Shown: positions 22,361-28,656 of the stretch, one piece after another
Numbering within the stretch: the first letter of the stretch is position 1
Layout of the letters: every line of letters starts with the position of its first letter
Assembly: GCA_014359885.1 (NCBI GenBank)
Contig: JACIYN010000059.1
Location: 1 to 64,000 of the forward strand
Direction of reading: 5' to 3'
DNA: 64,000 nt
Origin: Desulfacinum sp.
GTDB lineage: Bacteria > Desulfobacterota > Syntrophobacteria > Syntrophobacterales > DSM-9756
Program-made: the position numbers and the translations under genes
The notes under the pieces: model-generated
What the model was told of the DNA's origin: nothing
Database searches by the model: none
Seen by the model: the letters and a program-made list of their open reading frames with translations, nothing else

Positions 22361-25300
22361 TCAGCGCGGTTCTTGGTCGGCCCGGTCGATCCAACGCCGG
22401 ACGGTGGCCAAGAGATCCTCGACCCGGAACGGCTTGGACAGGTGGTCGTCGCACCCGGCCTCTTTGCTTCGGTTCCGGTCTCCCGCCATGGCGTGGGCCG
22501 TCACGGCGATGAGCGGGATGTGCCGGGTGGCCGGATCGGCCTTGGCCCGGCGGGCCACTTCCAGGCCGTCCATCTCCGGAAGCGACACGTCCAGCAGCAC
22601 CAGATCCGGACGCCAACGGCCGATGAGCTCCAGCCCCTCCCGGCCGTTGTCGGCATCGCGCACCTCGTAGTGGTCGTCCAGGATGGCGTGAAGGAGAACG
22701 CGGTTGTCGGGATTGTCTTCCACCACCAGGATCCGCGGGCGGCCTTCCCTGGATGCGGGCGTCTCCCGCGGGGTCTCCTCGGCCACCGGAAGCTCCTCCG
22801 TTTGCAACTCAGCAGAAAGCATGGCTCGAATCTTTTCCAACAGCTCCATTCGGTTCACGTCCCCCTTGTGAACCAGCTGGAAGATGTGGTTGCTGGCAAG
22901 CCGTTCCCGATCCCGGGCCGTCAGCTCCTTGGCCGTCAGCACCAGGACGGGCACCCGGTCCATGTCCCTCCGCTGCCGGATCTTTTCCAACACCGTCAGC
23001 CCGTCCACGTCGGGCATCATGAGATCCAGCAGGATGCCGTCGGGCCGGATGCGGTCCACATAATCCAGGGCCTCCGCCCCCGTGCGGGCCACATCGGGGC
23101 GGTAGCCCGCGCTTTCCAGGATGGAACGAATCTGCAGGATGGCCGCCTCGTTGTCTTCCACCACCAGCAGCCGTTTTCCGGCGGGATCAAAGTCCGGCTT
23201 CCGGCTTTCCAGGATCCGGCGAACCTGGCTGAGCAGGCGATCCCGGTTGACAGGTTTTCCCACAAAGCCTGCCGCGCCCAGCAGCCGGGCGGTGCCGTCG
23301 TCTCGGGCCGCCGACATGAGCACGACGGGAACGCCCTTCCATTCCGGCGTCTTTTTCAGACGGCGCAGGGCCTCGTAGCCGTCCATTCCGGGAAGGACCA
23401 CATCCAGGAGGATAGCCGCAGGTACCCGGCGGGTGCACTCCTCCATGGCCTCCTGAGCCGACCCGCACCCGCGCACCGAATAGCCCGCCTCCTCCAGCCA
23501 TCTGCAGATCTCTCGACGAACCTCTTCCTCGTCCTCCACCACCAGGATCACGGGACGCTTTCCGCCGTTGATCTTCAGGAAGGAAGCGGGAGCCATCACG
23601 CGCCCCTCTCCCTGCCAGGCCACAGGAAGCCGCAGAGTGAACACCGAGCCTCCCCCGGGGCGGCTTTCGGCGGACAGCTCTCCGCCCAGAAGCTCCGCCA
23701 GGCGCCGGGCGATGGCCAGCCCCAAGCCCGTACCTTCATAGCGCCGGGATGCGCCTCCGTCCACCTGCCGGAACTTGTCGAAAATGTGAGGCAGATCCTC
23801 GGCGGCGATGCCGATGCCCGTATCCCGAACGGTGATCACCACCCGATCGCCGTCCCGGCGCGCTCCGACCTCCACATGGCCCGACTCGGTGAATTTCACG
23901 GCGTTGCCCACCAGGTTCTGGAGGATCTGGTAGAGCCGCTTGCCGTCCGTTTCCAGCGCGGGCAGATCCCCGGAAAGGGCCGTCTTCACCGTCAGCCCCT
24001 TCTTGTCCGCCAGCGGTCGGATGTTTTCCACCACCGTATTGACCAAGGAAGGCAGGGAGACGACCTCGGGATAGACGTCCATGTTCCCCGATTCCACCTT
24101 GGAAAGATCCAGGATGTCGTTGATGAGATCCAAAAGAATCCGGCCGTTGCGCTCGATGATGTGCAGGAATCCCCGGTGCTCCTCCGAAAGCTCGGCGCCC
24201 AGGCGGTTGTCCAGCACACGGGACAGGGCCAGGATGGAGTTGAGCGGGGTCCGCAATTCGTGACTCATGTTGGAAAGGAACTCGTCCTTCAGCCGGTTGG
24301 CCTCATTGAGCTGGCGCTGCTGCTGCTCCAGCTCCACGTTCTGTTCCCGCAATTCTTCCGCCTGAAGCCTCAGTTCCTCGGCCTGCTCCATCAGCTCCTC
24401 CGATTGGGCCTGGAGCTCTTCCGCCTGGACTTCCAGCTCCTCCTTTTGGTTCCGGAGCTCTTCGTTGCGGGCGGAAAGAGTGTCCGTAAGATGCCGGATC
24501 TCCTGAACCGCCAGCAGTCGCGAACAGGCCGTATCGAAGGCGTGCCGCATGTCGTCCAGCAAGGCCCGCGTTTCCTCGGCGAAAGGCGCCGTGCGGGCCA
24601 GGGAAAAGACGAGATGGACCCGGCCGTTGCCGGAAACCGGCACCGTCAGCAGCTCCCGGGGCACCATGTCCCCGGCCACCGCCTTGTAGACGAACCGGGT
24701 CTCGGGGGACAGGCCCGTCACGTGCACCACGGCCCGGGAAGTGACGGCTCGGCCGATCTCGCCTTCTCCGGATTCGGCGTCGAAGGTTCCCAGGCGTTTC
24801 CCATCCATGCCCAGCCAGGACCGGGGCAGGAAACGCCCGGTTTCGGGATCCCGCACGTAGCAGGCTCCCGCATGGGCGCCGGTCACGCCCAAGAGCCGCT
24901 CCAGCACCGAACCGGCGAACTGTTCCAGGTCCACGGCCGCCACCATGGTTTCCTGGAGGGCGGCCATGTGTGCTTGCCGCCGCATGCGGCTGCTCAAGGA
25001 ATCCACCACCTGGTTGAAGGAGAGGGCCAGGACACCCAGCTCATCGGGCCGGCCCGCCTCACAGCGCGCCGAAAGATCCCCCGCCCGCAGACGACCGGTC
25101 ACCCGGACCATGGCTGCCACGGGCCGTGCGATCCGGCGGGCCAGCACGAACCCCGCCCCCAAGAGAAAGAGGACGCTCACCGCCGTCACGGCCAGCATGC
25201 GGGACCGAAACGCCTCCAGGGGGCCATCGATCCCGGCCGCGTCCGCCAGGGTGAAAAGCGCCCAGCCGGTGCCCGCGACGGGCGATTCCATCACATAGTA

Positions 25301-26044
25301 GGCCGCTCCTGCCACGTCCCGGCGTTTTGCCAGGGATCCGGACACAATCGCCCCGTCATCGGCCCAGACCGGAAGACGCGCGGGAAGACCCTCCACCAGG
25401 TCGTAGAATCGTTCCCCCATCCGCACATAGGAAACCACTCCCGCGGCCGGAGTCTTCCGGGTACCGGGAACATCGATGGGGGAGATAAACCCCGGGCGGA
25501 CCGTGGCCACCAGCACCGCGGAAGGGGTTTTTTCCGCAGAACCCTGCACGGGAACCGAGGCATCCAGGTGCAGTGAGTCTCCGAGATCGTCCCTGTGCCA
25601 GACTCCGATCACCGCCCTCCGGGCCTTCAGGGGCTCGACCACACACGGATCGCCGGACAAGTCCCGCCCCAGGCGTTTCGGGTTGGACGACACGAACACC
25701 AATCCGCTTGCCACATCCACCAGAAAGAGGTCTTCCACGGCGGGAAGGGTGCGGGCGTGCAGGGAAAGAAGGCGGGCGGCCATGGCCGGATTTGGAGGCT
25801 GGATCAACAGGGGGTCGTCGGCCAGAGCCGACAGGGAAGATGTCAGGGTGCGCACCCATCGATCCAGGGAAGCCAACCGATGGAAGTGGCCGTCGGCCAC
25901 GCGTTCCAACGCCTGGGCGCGGTACCGCGCGGCGTAAGAGTGAAACCAGACGGCTCCCAAGGCCAAGACCGGTATCACCCCCATCACCGCCAGCCAAAAG
26001 GCCACCCGGATTTTCATGCTTCGGAAGTGAAATGGGAAATTCAT
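22361..26044 (-). CDS. Large hybrid histidine kinase (periplasmic sensor, HAMP, GAF, coiled coil, HisKA, HATPase, three REC)
   Basis: H-box FLSNMSHELRTPLNSIL; GTGLGLAIARRLAELLGG; three REC domains (VILVVEDEEEV, LLVVEDNEAAI, ILVVEDNPDNR). Confidence 0.92.
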   Translation of the reverse strand: MNFPFHFRSMKIRVAFWLAVMGVIPVLALGAVWFHSYAARYRAQALERVADGHFHRLASLDRWVRTLTSSLSALADDPLLIQPPNPAMAARLLSLHARTLPAVEDLFLVDVASGLVFVSSNPKRLGRDLSGDPCVVEPLKARRAVIGVWHRDDLGDSLHLDASVPVQGSAEKTPSAVLVATVRPGFISPIDVPGTRKTPAAGVVSYVRMGERFYDLVEGLPARLPVWADDGAIVSGSLAKRRDVAGAAYYVMESPVAGTGWALFTLADAAGIDGPLEAFRSRMLAVTAVSVLFLLGAGFVLARRIARPVAAMVRVTGRLRAGDLSARCEAGRPDELGVLALSFNQVVDSLSSRMRRQAHMAALQETMVAAVDLEQFAGSVLERLLGVTGAHAGACYVRDPETGRFLPRSWLGMDGKRLGTFDAESGEGEIGRAVTSRAVVHVTGLSPETRFVYKAVAGDMVPRELLTVPVSGNGRVHLVFSLARTAPFAEETRALLDDMRHAFDTACSRLLAVQEIRHLTDTLSARNEELRNQKEELEVQAEELQAQSEELMEQAEELRLQAEELREQNVELEQQQRQLNEANRLKDEFLSNMSHELRTPLNSILALSRVLDNRLGAELSEEHRGFLHIIERNGRILLDLINDILDLSKVESGNMDVYPEVVSLPSLVNTVVENIRPLADKKGLTVKTALSGDLPALETDGKRLYQILQNLVGNAVKFTESGHVEVGARRDGDRVVITVRDTGIGIAAEDLPHIFDKFRQVDGGASRRYEGTGLGLAIARRLAELLGGELSAESRPGGGSVFTLRLPVAWQGEGRVMAPASFLKINGGKRPVILVVEDEEEVRREICRWLEEAGYSVRGCGSAQEAMEECTRRVPAAILLDVVLPGMDGYEALRRLKKTPEWKGVPVVLMSAARDDGTARLLGAAGFVGKPVNRDRLLSQVRRILESRKPDFDPAGKRLLVVEDNEAAILQIRSILESAGYRPDVARTGAEALDYVDRIRPDGILLDLMMPDVDGLTVLEKIRQRRDMDRVPVLVLTAKELTARDRERLASNHIFQLVHKGDVNRMELLEKIRAMLSAELQTEELPVAEETPRETPASREGRPRILVVEDNPDNRVLLHAILDDHYEVRDADNGREGLELIGRWRPDLVLLDVSLPEMDGLEVARRAKADPATRHIPLIAVTAHAMAGDRNRSKEAGCDDHLSKPFRVEDLLATVRRWIDRADQEPR

Positions 26045-26052
26045 GACGCCTC

Positions 26053-26868
26053 CTAGACGACTTTCATGTAGATGGGGCACCACGTGGTGAAACGCAGGAA
26101 ATATCTTGCGAAAGGACCGGGAAGGGTTTCCGCTTCCCCCAAAAGGAGAATGCCCCCCGGCATGAGCGCCCGATGGAGTTTGGCCGCGATCTTTTCCTGT
26201 GCCTCTCTTTCGTAATAGATAAGCACGTTGCGGCACGACACCAGGTCGAAGTCGCCGAAAACCGCCTCGGTCGGCACGTGCCGCCGTTCTTCACACAGAT
26301 CGTGCACGGCGAAGGTGACGCGCCGTTGCACGCCGTCCCGGACGCGATACCTCCCCTCTTCCATGGCGAAATATTTTTTGAGAATCCCCAGGCGAACATT
26401 CTGGACGCGGTTTTCCTCGTAAAGGGCCTTTCGGGCCGCATCCAGGGCCTTCACATCCAGATCCGTCGCCAAGACGAGGGGTTCCAGGTCCGTGTGCTCC
26501 ATGAGCAGGATCGCCAGGGAATAGGCCTCCTCTCCCGTGGAGCATCCGGCGGACCAGGCCCGAAACAGGCGTTCTCCGCGCTGCGCCTTCTCTTGCACCA
26601 CGCCCGGAAGGATCCGTTCCGCCAACAGTTCGAAAACCCAGGGATCGCGAAAGAAGGAAGTGACGTTGATGGTGAGGGCATCCAGCAGGGCGTCCACCTC
26701 TTCCGGCTGAGACAGCACGTGGGACACGTAGGCGCCCAGGTCGTCCAAGCCCAGCTTTTCGGCGCGACTGCGGCAACGCCTTTCAAAGGCCGCCGGCCGG
26801 TAGCCGCTGAAATCCAGACCGCGCCGGTCTTTCAGAAGCTCCACGAGCCTGGCGCACTGTGTGTTCAT
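26053..26868 (-). CDS. CheR-type protein-glutamate methyltransferase
   Basis: TINVTSFFRDPWVFELLAERILP; FRAWSAGCSTGEEAYSLAILL; FDLVSCRNVLIYYE. Confidence 0.9.
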   Translation of the reverse strand: MNTQCARLVELLKDRRGLDFSGYRPAAFERRCRSRAEKLGLDDLGAYVSHVLSQPEEVDALLDALTINVTSFFRDPWVFELLAERILPGVVQEKAQRGERLFRAWSAGCSTGEEAYSLAILLMEHTDLEPLVLATDLDVKALDAARKALYEENRVQNVRLGILKKYFAMEEGRYRVRDGVQRRVTFAVHDLCEERRHVPTEAVFGDFDLVSCRNVLIYYEREAQEKIAAKLHRALMPGGILLLGEAETLPGPFARYFLRFTTWCPIYMKVV

Positions 26869-27046
26869 TCTTCCCCGCCTCACCAGCCCCCCGTCACCAT
26901 CCACGGACCGGGCCGATTGGATGTGCACTAAGTGTTTTCTTATAGTGAATATGGATGGTAAAAGGAAGACTTAGGGTAAGGAATTCCTGGTGCGGGATCC
27001 AAGAGGCCCCAAGGGTTCGAAACCAACCCAAACGGCAGGGGGAACC

Positions 27047-27513: not shown

Positions 27514-27535
27514 GGATTATGGCGGGATTATGGCG
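27514..27535. repeat. Perfect tandem 11-bp repeat GGATTATGGCG x2
   Basis: ggattatggcg-ggattatggcg read directly; about 110 bp upstream of the sigma54-like element. Confidence 0.6.
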
Positions 27536-27643
27536 CGATCAAGGCCGCCGTGGCGGCATTCAGGGATGAGGGCGGGAAAGCCGGTGGGCATGGAAACGGG
27601 GGAAAGGCCCGTGGGTCGGGCGATCACACATTTTTTTCCTGGG

Positions 27644-27659
27644 TGGCACATCGATTGCT
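27644..27659 (+). promoter_or_regulatory. Sigma54 (RpoN) -24/-12 promoter, full consensus match
   Basis: TGGCAC-ATCGA-TTGCT; consensus TGGCAC-N5-TTGCW. Confidence 0.7.
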
Positions 27660-27669
27660 TGTGCATAGG

Positions 27670-27744
27670 GGGCAAGAGAAACCAACTCTTTCCTCCTCGA
27701 GAAGGCCGAACGGTACAGCCCCACCGTTTGGCCTTTTCCTTTTT
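27670..27744 (+). ncRNA. Candidate sigma54-dependent sRNA or attenuated leader
   Basis: Starts ~12 nt after the -12 element; 5' hairpin AAGAG/CTCTT (27674-27690), single-stranded TCCTCCTCGAG, terminator at the 3' end. Confidence 0.45.
27702..27744 (+). terminator. Intrinsic terminator
   Basis: AAGGCCGAACGG-(10 nt)-CCGTTTGGCCTT, 12-bp stem (one G-U), then TTTTCCTTTTT tract overlapping the stem end. Confidence 0.65.
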
Positions 27745-27798
27745 GTGCATCGGGCAGGGAGCAAAAACTTGACGTCAAAGGGGAAAGGGAGACCTTTC

Positions 27799-28656
27799 AT
27801 GGAAAGAGCGGCTCCTTTGGACACCGTCCTTTTCCGGACGGACGGCCCCCGCGTCACGCGGGTCGGGCTGGGCGGCGAAGGGATTTTGCGCACTTCCGGG
27901 CGCTCGCCCGAGGCCGTGGAGGTGATCGAGGCGGCCCTGTGGGAAGGAATCACCTATTTTGACAGTGCTCCCGCCTACGCCCAGTGCGAAGACTACCACG
28001 GCCGGGTGTGGCCCCGGCATCCCGAAGCACGCGGCCGCGTGGTAGTGGCCGGGAAATCGGCCAGCCGGGACCGGGAAGGCGCCCTGCGCGACTTGCATCG
28101 GAGCCTCCAGCGGATGGGCACCGACCGTCTGGACCTCTGGCAGATCCACGACCTGCGCACCCGGGAGGATCTGCGGGCCATCGAAGCGCCGGGGGGCGCT
28201 CTGGAAGCCTTCGTGGAGGCGCGGTCCTCAGGGAAGGTGGGAGCCATCGGCGTCACGGGCCACCACGATCCCCGGGTTCTCACCCATGCCGTGGCCCATT
28301 GGCCGGTGGACGCGGTACTGCTTCCCGTCAATCCTGTGGAAGCGATCCTGGGGGGCTTTCTGGATGTGACCCTCGAGGCGGCCCGGGACAAAGGCCTCGT
28401 GGTCCTCGGCATGAAGGTCCTGGGCGGCGGGGAATATCTGGCTCCCGGATCGGGGGTGACGGCGGAGGCTCTGATCCGTTTCGCCCTTTCGCAGCCCATC
28501 TCGGTCGCCGTGGTGGGCTGCGGAAATCCCCGGGAAGTCCGGGCACTGGCGTCCTGCGGGCGGGGCCACGTCCCCATGACCCGCGGCGAACAGGAGGCGC
28601 TCCTGGACATCTTTCGCCCCTACGCCCGGAAGCTTGCCTTTTACCGCGGTCGATAG
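27799..28656 (+). CDS. Aldo/keto reductase family protein
   Basis: VTRVGLGGEGILRTSGRSPEAVEVIEAALWEGITYFDSAPAYAQCE; DLHRSLQRMGTDRLDLWQIHDL. Confidence 0.85.
   Translation: MERAAPLDTVLFRTDGPRVTRVGLGGEGILRTSGRSPEAVEVIEAALWEGITYFDSAPAYAQCEDYHGRVWPRHPEARGRVVVAGKSASRDREGALRDLHRSLQRMGTDRLDLWQIHDLRTREDLRAIEAPGGALEAFVEARSSGKVGAIGVTGHHDPRVLTHAVAHWPVDAVLLPVNPVEAILGGFLDVTLEAARDKGLVVLGMKVLGGGEYLAPGSGVTAEALIRFALSQPISVAVVGCGNPREVRALASCGRGHVPMTRGEQEALLDIFRPYARKLAFYRGR

Follow-up and report, generated by a model that had tools for sequence, protein, structure and literature searches.

Promoter, RNA and terminator at the locus

The window analyzed here is a 64,000-nucleotide stretch of Desulfacinum sp. DNA (contig JACIYN010000059.1). 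A sigma54 promoter, TGGCAC-N5-TTGCT (-24/-12 elements; sequence TGGCACATCGATTGCT), is located at 27644-27659 on the + strand. It is the sole zero-mismatch match to TGGCACN5TTGCW on both strands of the window, and also the sole match to TGGYAYN5WTGC. The predicted transcript is an sRNA of ~75 nt (27670-27744, + strand), its start placed 12 nt past the -12 element. The ATG of an aldo/keto reductase gene follows at 27799, leaving a gap of ~55 nt after the element. The window also encodes a large hybrid histidine kinase (22361-26236) with HAMP, GAF and three receiver domains, and a CheR methyltransferase gene (26053-26928) adjoins the kinase gene.

The RNA 27670-27750 had a folding energy of -33.3 kcal/mol (z = -5.1), which none of 200 shuffled sequences equalled. 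The predicted fold consists of two stem-loops only. The 5′ hairpin, AAGAG-AAACCAA-CUCUU (27674-27690, + strand), pairs AAGAG (27674-27678) with CUCUU (27686-27690). The intrinsic terminator (27699-27744, + strand) has a hairpin at 27699-27738 with 16 pairs and an 8-nt loop that includes GCCCC (27718-27722), followed by CTTTTT, and is the sole strong terminator hairpin within 3 kb. A seed, AACUCUUUCCUCCUC (27684-27698, + strand), is the complement of GAGGAGGAAAGAGUU, which comprises a Shine-Dalgarno sequence and spacer. The earlier note had described a fully consensus sigma54 promoter and a 5′ hairpin, and both were found as described. It had also described a terminator with a 12-bp stem and a single-stranded, anti-Shine-Dalgarno-like stretch. 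The terminator is strong and has a T tract, but its stem is 16 bp when the A/U flank is counted. The stretch is indeed anti-Shine-Dalgarno-like; however, the 3′ arm of the 5′ hairpin takes in part of the seed, which leaves only UCCUCCUC largely unpaired in the predicted structure.

Conservation of the RNA

With 27600-27800 as query, Blast returned 59 places, spread over 36 of 40 related genomes. Among the carriers that have a name are Desulfacinum infernum, D. hydrothermale, Desulforhabdus sp. TSK and Desulfoferrobacter suflitae. A covariance model built from 57 copies found 1-6 matches per genome in 37 of the order's 39 genomes. The window's own genome has one copy, to which covariance model R1 assigned 27669-27740 with 78 bits. 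A sigma54 promoter was present at 59/59 places, with strict consensus in 58 and TGGCACGAAAAGTGC in the remaining one, against a background rate for the strict consensus of 2 in 39,249 sequence windows (5e-5). The distance from promoter to core was near-constant (20-32 nt) across the 59 copies. In the 57 aligned copies there was almost no variation in the core AACUCUUUCCUCCUC or in the GCCCC loop of the terminator, and 9 of 12 consensus pairs of the terminator showed two-sided changes that preserve pairing. Loss of the element from close relatives had been named beforehand as grounds for giving it up, and a covariance search with relatives had been proposed; the element is kept across the order, and its terminator stem covaries.

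The copies fall into subtype A, which has the 5′ hairpin and terminator GCUAACCGG..CCGGUUAGC, and subtype B (terminator GCCGAUCGG..), in which most copies are without the 5′ hairpin. An Rfam search of the element revealed no family above threshold, Qrr included. The best match, CC3664 of Caulobacter (RF01530), has a terminator with a similar C-rich loop, but membership was rejected at 25.7 bits, below the gathering score of 60. On the evidence of the aligned sequences, the element is a conserved, previously uncatalogued sRNA of sulfate-reducing and syntrophic bacteria.

Several related RNAs were observed besides. The same seed recurs in a third class of paralogs (L236, L237, L240, L242, L245 and similar loci in genomes of the order), which carries GGAAAGnnAACUCUUUCCUCCUC and terminator GAGAGAGUCAGG..CCUCCU.. 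and has a sigma70-like TTGAC..TTATAAT promoter in place of the sigma54 promoter. In family f12 (L102, L103, L107) the RNAs begin with AACUCUUUCCUCCUC and lie behind CTTTTAATCTTCCTTTAAT repeats; since these resemble Pho boxes, the same seed is possibly under phosphate control there. Locus L269/L099 (G304:C49) carries two sRNA copies in tandem, separated by ~450 bp, and each copy has palindromes and a sigma54 promoter of its own.

Upstream activating sites and the candidate regulator

Two 11-bp direct repeats, TTATGGCGGGA and TTATGGCGCGA, are located at 27517-27538 (+ strand), and TTATGGCGnGA occurs nowhere else in the window. Upstream of the sRNA promoters of relatives, 93 TGGCGYGATT-like half-sites were found on the + strand vs. 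6 on the - strand. Almost all lie at -160 to -80 relative to the -24 element, with helically phased spacings of 11, 20, 21 or 30-32 bp. The family thus combines a promoter at fixed distance with positioned, phased upstream sites, the pattern of a sigma54-dependent sRNA, and the repeats at 27517-27538 are predicted to be the activator-binding site of the sRNA promoter. A strict search with the activating site for further regulon genes returned essentially sRNA loci only, plus one unexplained site, L319 (G035:C170:20496); this site has perfect tandem repeats (TGGCGCGATTATGGCGCGATT), and neither an sRNA nor a sigma54 promoter could be recognized immediately downstream.

The NtrC-type response regulator that precedes the sRNA in f53 and f38 gave a single match (E < 1e-150) in each of 87 genomes, out of 297 of the phylum. 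An NtrC-like regulator gene stands directly 5′ of the sRNA in families f5, f10, f38, f41, f42, f53, f54, f71, f74 and f87; in the window's order it lies elsewhere. In f53 and f38, the response regulator gene is followed by GTACAAAATnTTGTAC palindromes and then by the sRNA; f53-like loci (e.g., L204) are labeled Desulfobacteraceae. Palindromes, sigma54 site and CU-rich sRNA are found 3′ of the regulator ortholog in f38, f53, f42, f74 and f71. The regulator is directly followed by a sigma54 site and a CU-rich, terminator-bearing RNA in f42, f74, f71, f41, f10, f54 and f87; f14 and f82 have the CU-rich RNA and terminator in this position, with a weaker promoter match. In f44 genomes, the regulator ortholog has no recognizable sigma54 site or CU-rich sRNA just downstream.

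In the window's class (f1, f2, f3, f5), homology of the regulator stops past the AAA+ domain (~residue 388 of 454); a winged-helix-like end, ...FITNRDYSKLNEISERQALRELTEMVDLGVLVRIGKGRGCRYVF, to which Pfam matches are weak, stands in place of the HTH_8 Fis domain. Winged-helix and Fis-type regulators are about 62% identical across receiver and AAA+ domains. The activating sites are inverted repeats where the regulator is of Fis type, and direct repeats in the window's class. In the sister family f5, the winged-helix regulator, four 11-bp GGATTATGTCC repeats, a sigma54 site (TGGCAAGAAATTTGC) and the sRNA are contiguous. The window's repeat unit GGATTATGGCG has the same period as that of f5 and differs at two positions. 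Judged from these alignments, the activator apparently exchanged its DNA-binding domain, Fis for winged helix, and the binding sites of the sRNA were altered to match. Several winged-helix regulators (L327-L332) have GAFSGA, not GAFTGA, in the sigma54-contact loop.

The regulator of the window's genome is encoded at C39:39545-40.9k (G000), away from the sRNA, with a kinase gene just upstream. This one-per-genome response regulator is the likely activator of the window's sRNA. The f5 contiguity of winged-helix regulator, 11-bp repeats and sRNA links the two; in the window's genome the assignment is by analogy and motif, not by adjacency. The genome encodes ~41 sigma54 activators, and another of these enhancer-binding proteins might activate the sRNA instead. 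Such an alternative is favored by the genomes of the order that were examined, in which sRNA and regulator gene lie apart and no TGGCGYGATT motif turned up next to the regulator; however, the match between type of DNA-binding domain and geometry of the activating sites, together with the f5 arrangement, makes it unlikely, and we favor the winged-helix response regulator.

Predicted targets and mode of action

We searched 39 genomes for GAGGAGGAAAGAGT with ≤1 mismatch, using the reversed pattern as control. With the sRNA genes counted in, there were 246 sites vs. 143 for the control. Among 60 non-sRNA sites fetched, 37 stand before a possible start codon. Target prediction for the seed, another check suggested at the outset, gave recurrent complementary ribosome-binding sites in a few gene families: HU (8 genomes), Lpp-like alanine-zipper lipoproteins (11, of which 8 plus 3 from a further set of sites), porin-like proteins (4-5; predicted type DESULF_POR1) and LpxC (3), with the lipoprotein and some porin identifications falling below curated cut-offs. 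Porin-like and lipoprotein-like genes are also among the best sites in Desulfobacteraceae-type genomes.

In the window's own genome, 14 nt of the lpxC leader pair with the seed at -27.3 kcal/mol, stronger than all 360 background gene starts. Four rows were left out of the pairing results: L434, aligned at a wrong site; L428, which has no score; and L394 (G006) and L385 (G004), which had been paired with sRNAs from other genomes. The porin leader of D. suflitae (G027) pairs with the sRNA of its own genome over 28 continuous nt (G-U included) at -51.9 kcal/mol, and none of 2000 shuffles of the upstream segment did as well. Sites of the form AGGAGGAAAGA..ATG stood to the reversed control as 7:1 in genomes without detected sRNA, no lower than the 38:7 in genomes with it; because the reversed-pattern control scales alike, these counts do not discriminate carriers from non-carriers. 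An lpxC or lpp site is still present in G004 and G006, two genomes of the order in which no sRNA was detected. HU, Lpp and porin genes are highly expressed and may have strong Shine-Dalgarno sites in any case, which could explain part of the target signal.

We consider it quite probable that the element is a trans-acting sRNA, activated by a two-component system and sigma54, that pairs with ribosome-binding sites and blocks translation of envelope genes. The sequences themselves show the promoter, the terminator, their conservation and covariation, the activating-site repeats, the orthology of the regulator with its domain swap, and the complementarity to mRNAs; from these we infer the following course. 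A signal, perhaps of envelope stress, would pass from the histidine kinase to the NtrC-type response regulator (C39:39545-40.9k), which would bind the 11-bp direct repeats at 27517-27538 and activate RNA polymerase-sigma54 at 27644. The resulting ~75-nt RNA would end at its own terminator. Its CUCUUUCCUCCUC seed would then pair with certain mRNAs across the ribosome-binding site and spacer. In the window's genome this mRNA would be that of lpxC; in relatives, the mRNAs would be those of HU, a DESULF_POR1-type porin and an Lpp-like lipoprotein. Translation of the paired mRNAs would be blocked, and outer-membrane and envelope synthesis would decrease upon the kinase signal.

A genuine sRNA might instead act through a protein or the ribosome, for example by serving as a CU-rich decoy or by imitating the anti-Shine-Dalgarno tail of 16S rRNA in a general way and so damping translation globally. 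The seed includes CCUCCU, the anti-Shine-Dalgarno core; its conservation is extreme, and CU-rich seeds recur in other families, although they vary. However, the conserved stretch reaches well past CCUCC, complementary sites run into the spacer (13-14 nt, and 28 nt in the one porin), and the recurrent sites belong to a few orthologous envelope genes rather than to ribosomal or elongation-factor genes. We therefore regard global damping as improbable, a little more so than activation by a different enhancer-binding protein.

The earlier note had left a choice between an sRNA and an attenuated leader of the aldo/keto reductase gene. The former is strongly favored by its conservation and covariation, by the coupling to the promoter and by the recurrence of complementary targets. 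The leader, in which sigma54 transcription would halt at 27744 until a signal opens the terminator, fits the short distance to the reductase gene and the presence of that gene downstream of the element in D. infernum and three further genomes of the family, but is very hard to maintain: D. hydrothermale has an sRNA 96% identical and no aldo/keto reductase found in the flanks examined, neighbors in other families vary in identity and orientation (some are convergent), conservation at genus level ends at the terminator, and the invariant part is the seed, with no alternative antiterminator seen. A conserved RNA with its own terminator, independent of neighboring genes, is what a trans-acting intergenic sRNA presents, and the comparisons support that reading.

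Discussion

Pxr of Myxococcus xanthus, controlled by PxrK/PxrR, is a sigma54-dependent sRNA with paralogs, and its gene immediately follows those of an NtrC-like response regulator and its paired kinase (PMC5684412, PMC5568312). Here, a regulator directly before the sRNA is found in the ten families f5 to f87 listed above, and not in the window's order. Pxr is 108 nt long, has three stem-loops and is reported from myxobacteria only, whereas the window RNA has ~75 nt and two stem-loops; the Pxr probe sequence (CCCCCCACCCCUUCAGCACUUCCGGU in RNA) is without the seed of the window's sRNA. Membership in the Pxr family by sequence was rejected, the complement of the published SL1 probe being absent from the two-stem-loop window RNA (PMC5568312).

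In Desulfovibrio vulgaris, Dv_sRNA2 and an ncRNA downstream of DVU0653 are targets of sigma54-dependent regulators encoded just upstream (PMC3333781, PMC4641369); their likeness to the present module lies in the gene arrangement as described. Escherichia coli GlmY has a sigma54 promoter with upstream sites bound by the NtrC-type regulator of QseE/QseF, and functions in envelope homeostasis (PMC6075780). With GlmY the present sRNA shares the sigma54 promoter and, by prediction, upstream sites for an NtrC-type regulator and an envelope role. GlmY is longer and lacks the anti-Shine-Dalgarno seed, and it works by protein titration, acting on glmS. The Qrr sRNAs of Vibrio, activated by LuxO, are multi-copy and near-identical, each with its own sigma54 promoter; apart from this likeness, their sequence is unrelated, their targets belong to quorum sensing and the regulator architecture is different. 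RybB, MicA and MicL of Enterobacteria are trans sRNAs that repress porins and Lpp. They resemble the present sRNA in predicted function, but are sigmaE-dependent and have unrelated sequences and regulators. The closest systems in arrangement are Pxr/PxrR, the D. vulgaris response regulator/ncRNA pairs and GlmY/QseF. By sequence the present sRNA is, as far as tested, a member of none of the systems compared. It represents a new family of an already known kind (Pxr/PxrR, GlmY/QseF), in which the regulator swap is unusual. The predicted activating site, the likely activator with its domain swap and the recurrent envelope targets go beyond the first reading of the locus.

A wider reading, which we put forward tentatively and with somewhat more doubt than conviction, is that of an ancient, Desulfobacterota-wide outer-membrane module of two-component system, sigma54 and sRNA, a deep relative of the PxrK-PxrR-Pxr developmental switch of myxobacteria. 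In Syntrophobacteria, the Fis HTH would have given way to a winged helix and inverted repeats to 11-bp direct repeats, and the sRNA would have left its regulator and multiplied. If this is true, the module would correspond, under sigma54, to the sRNAs that depend on sigmaE. Pxr, an orphan sRNA of myxobacteria, may find its place in a wider family. The coupled swap of DNA-binding domain and enhancer sites would be a rare, testable case of transcriptional rewiring in which the output RNA is kept, with family f5 as a contiguous intermediate in the exchange. For a large phylum rich in uncultured members, the findings delimit an sRNA family well and predict its regulator and targets, and they suggest a sigma54 route to envelope control, for which the known models are sigmaE-dependent.
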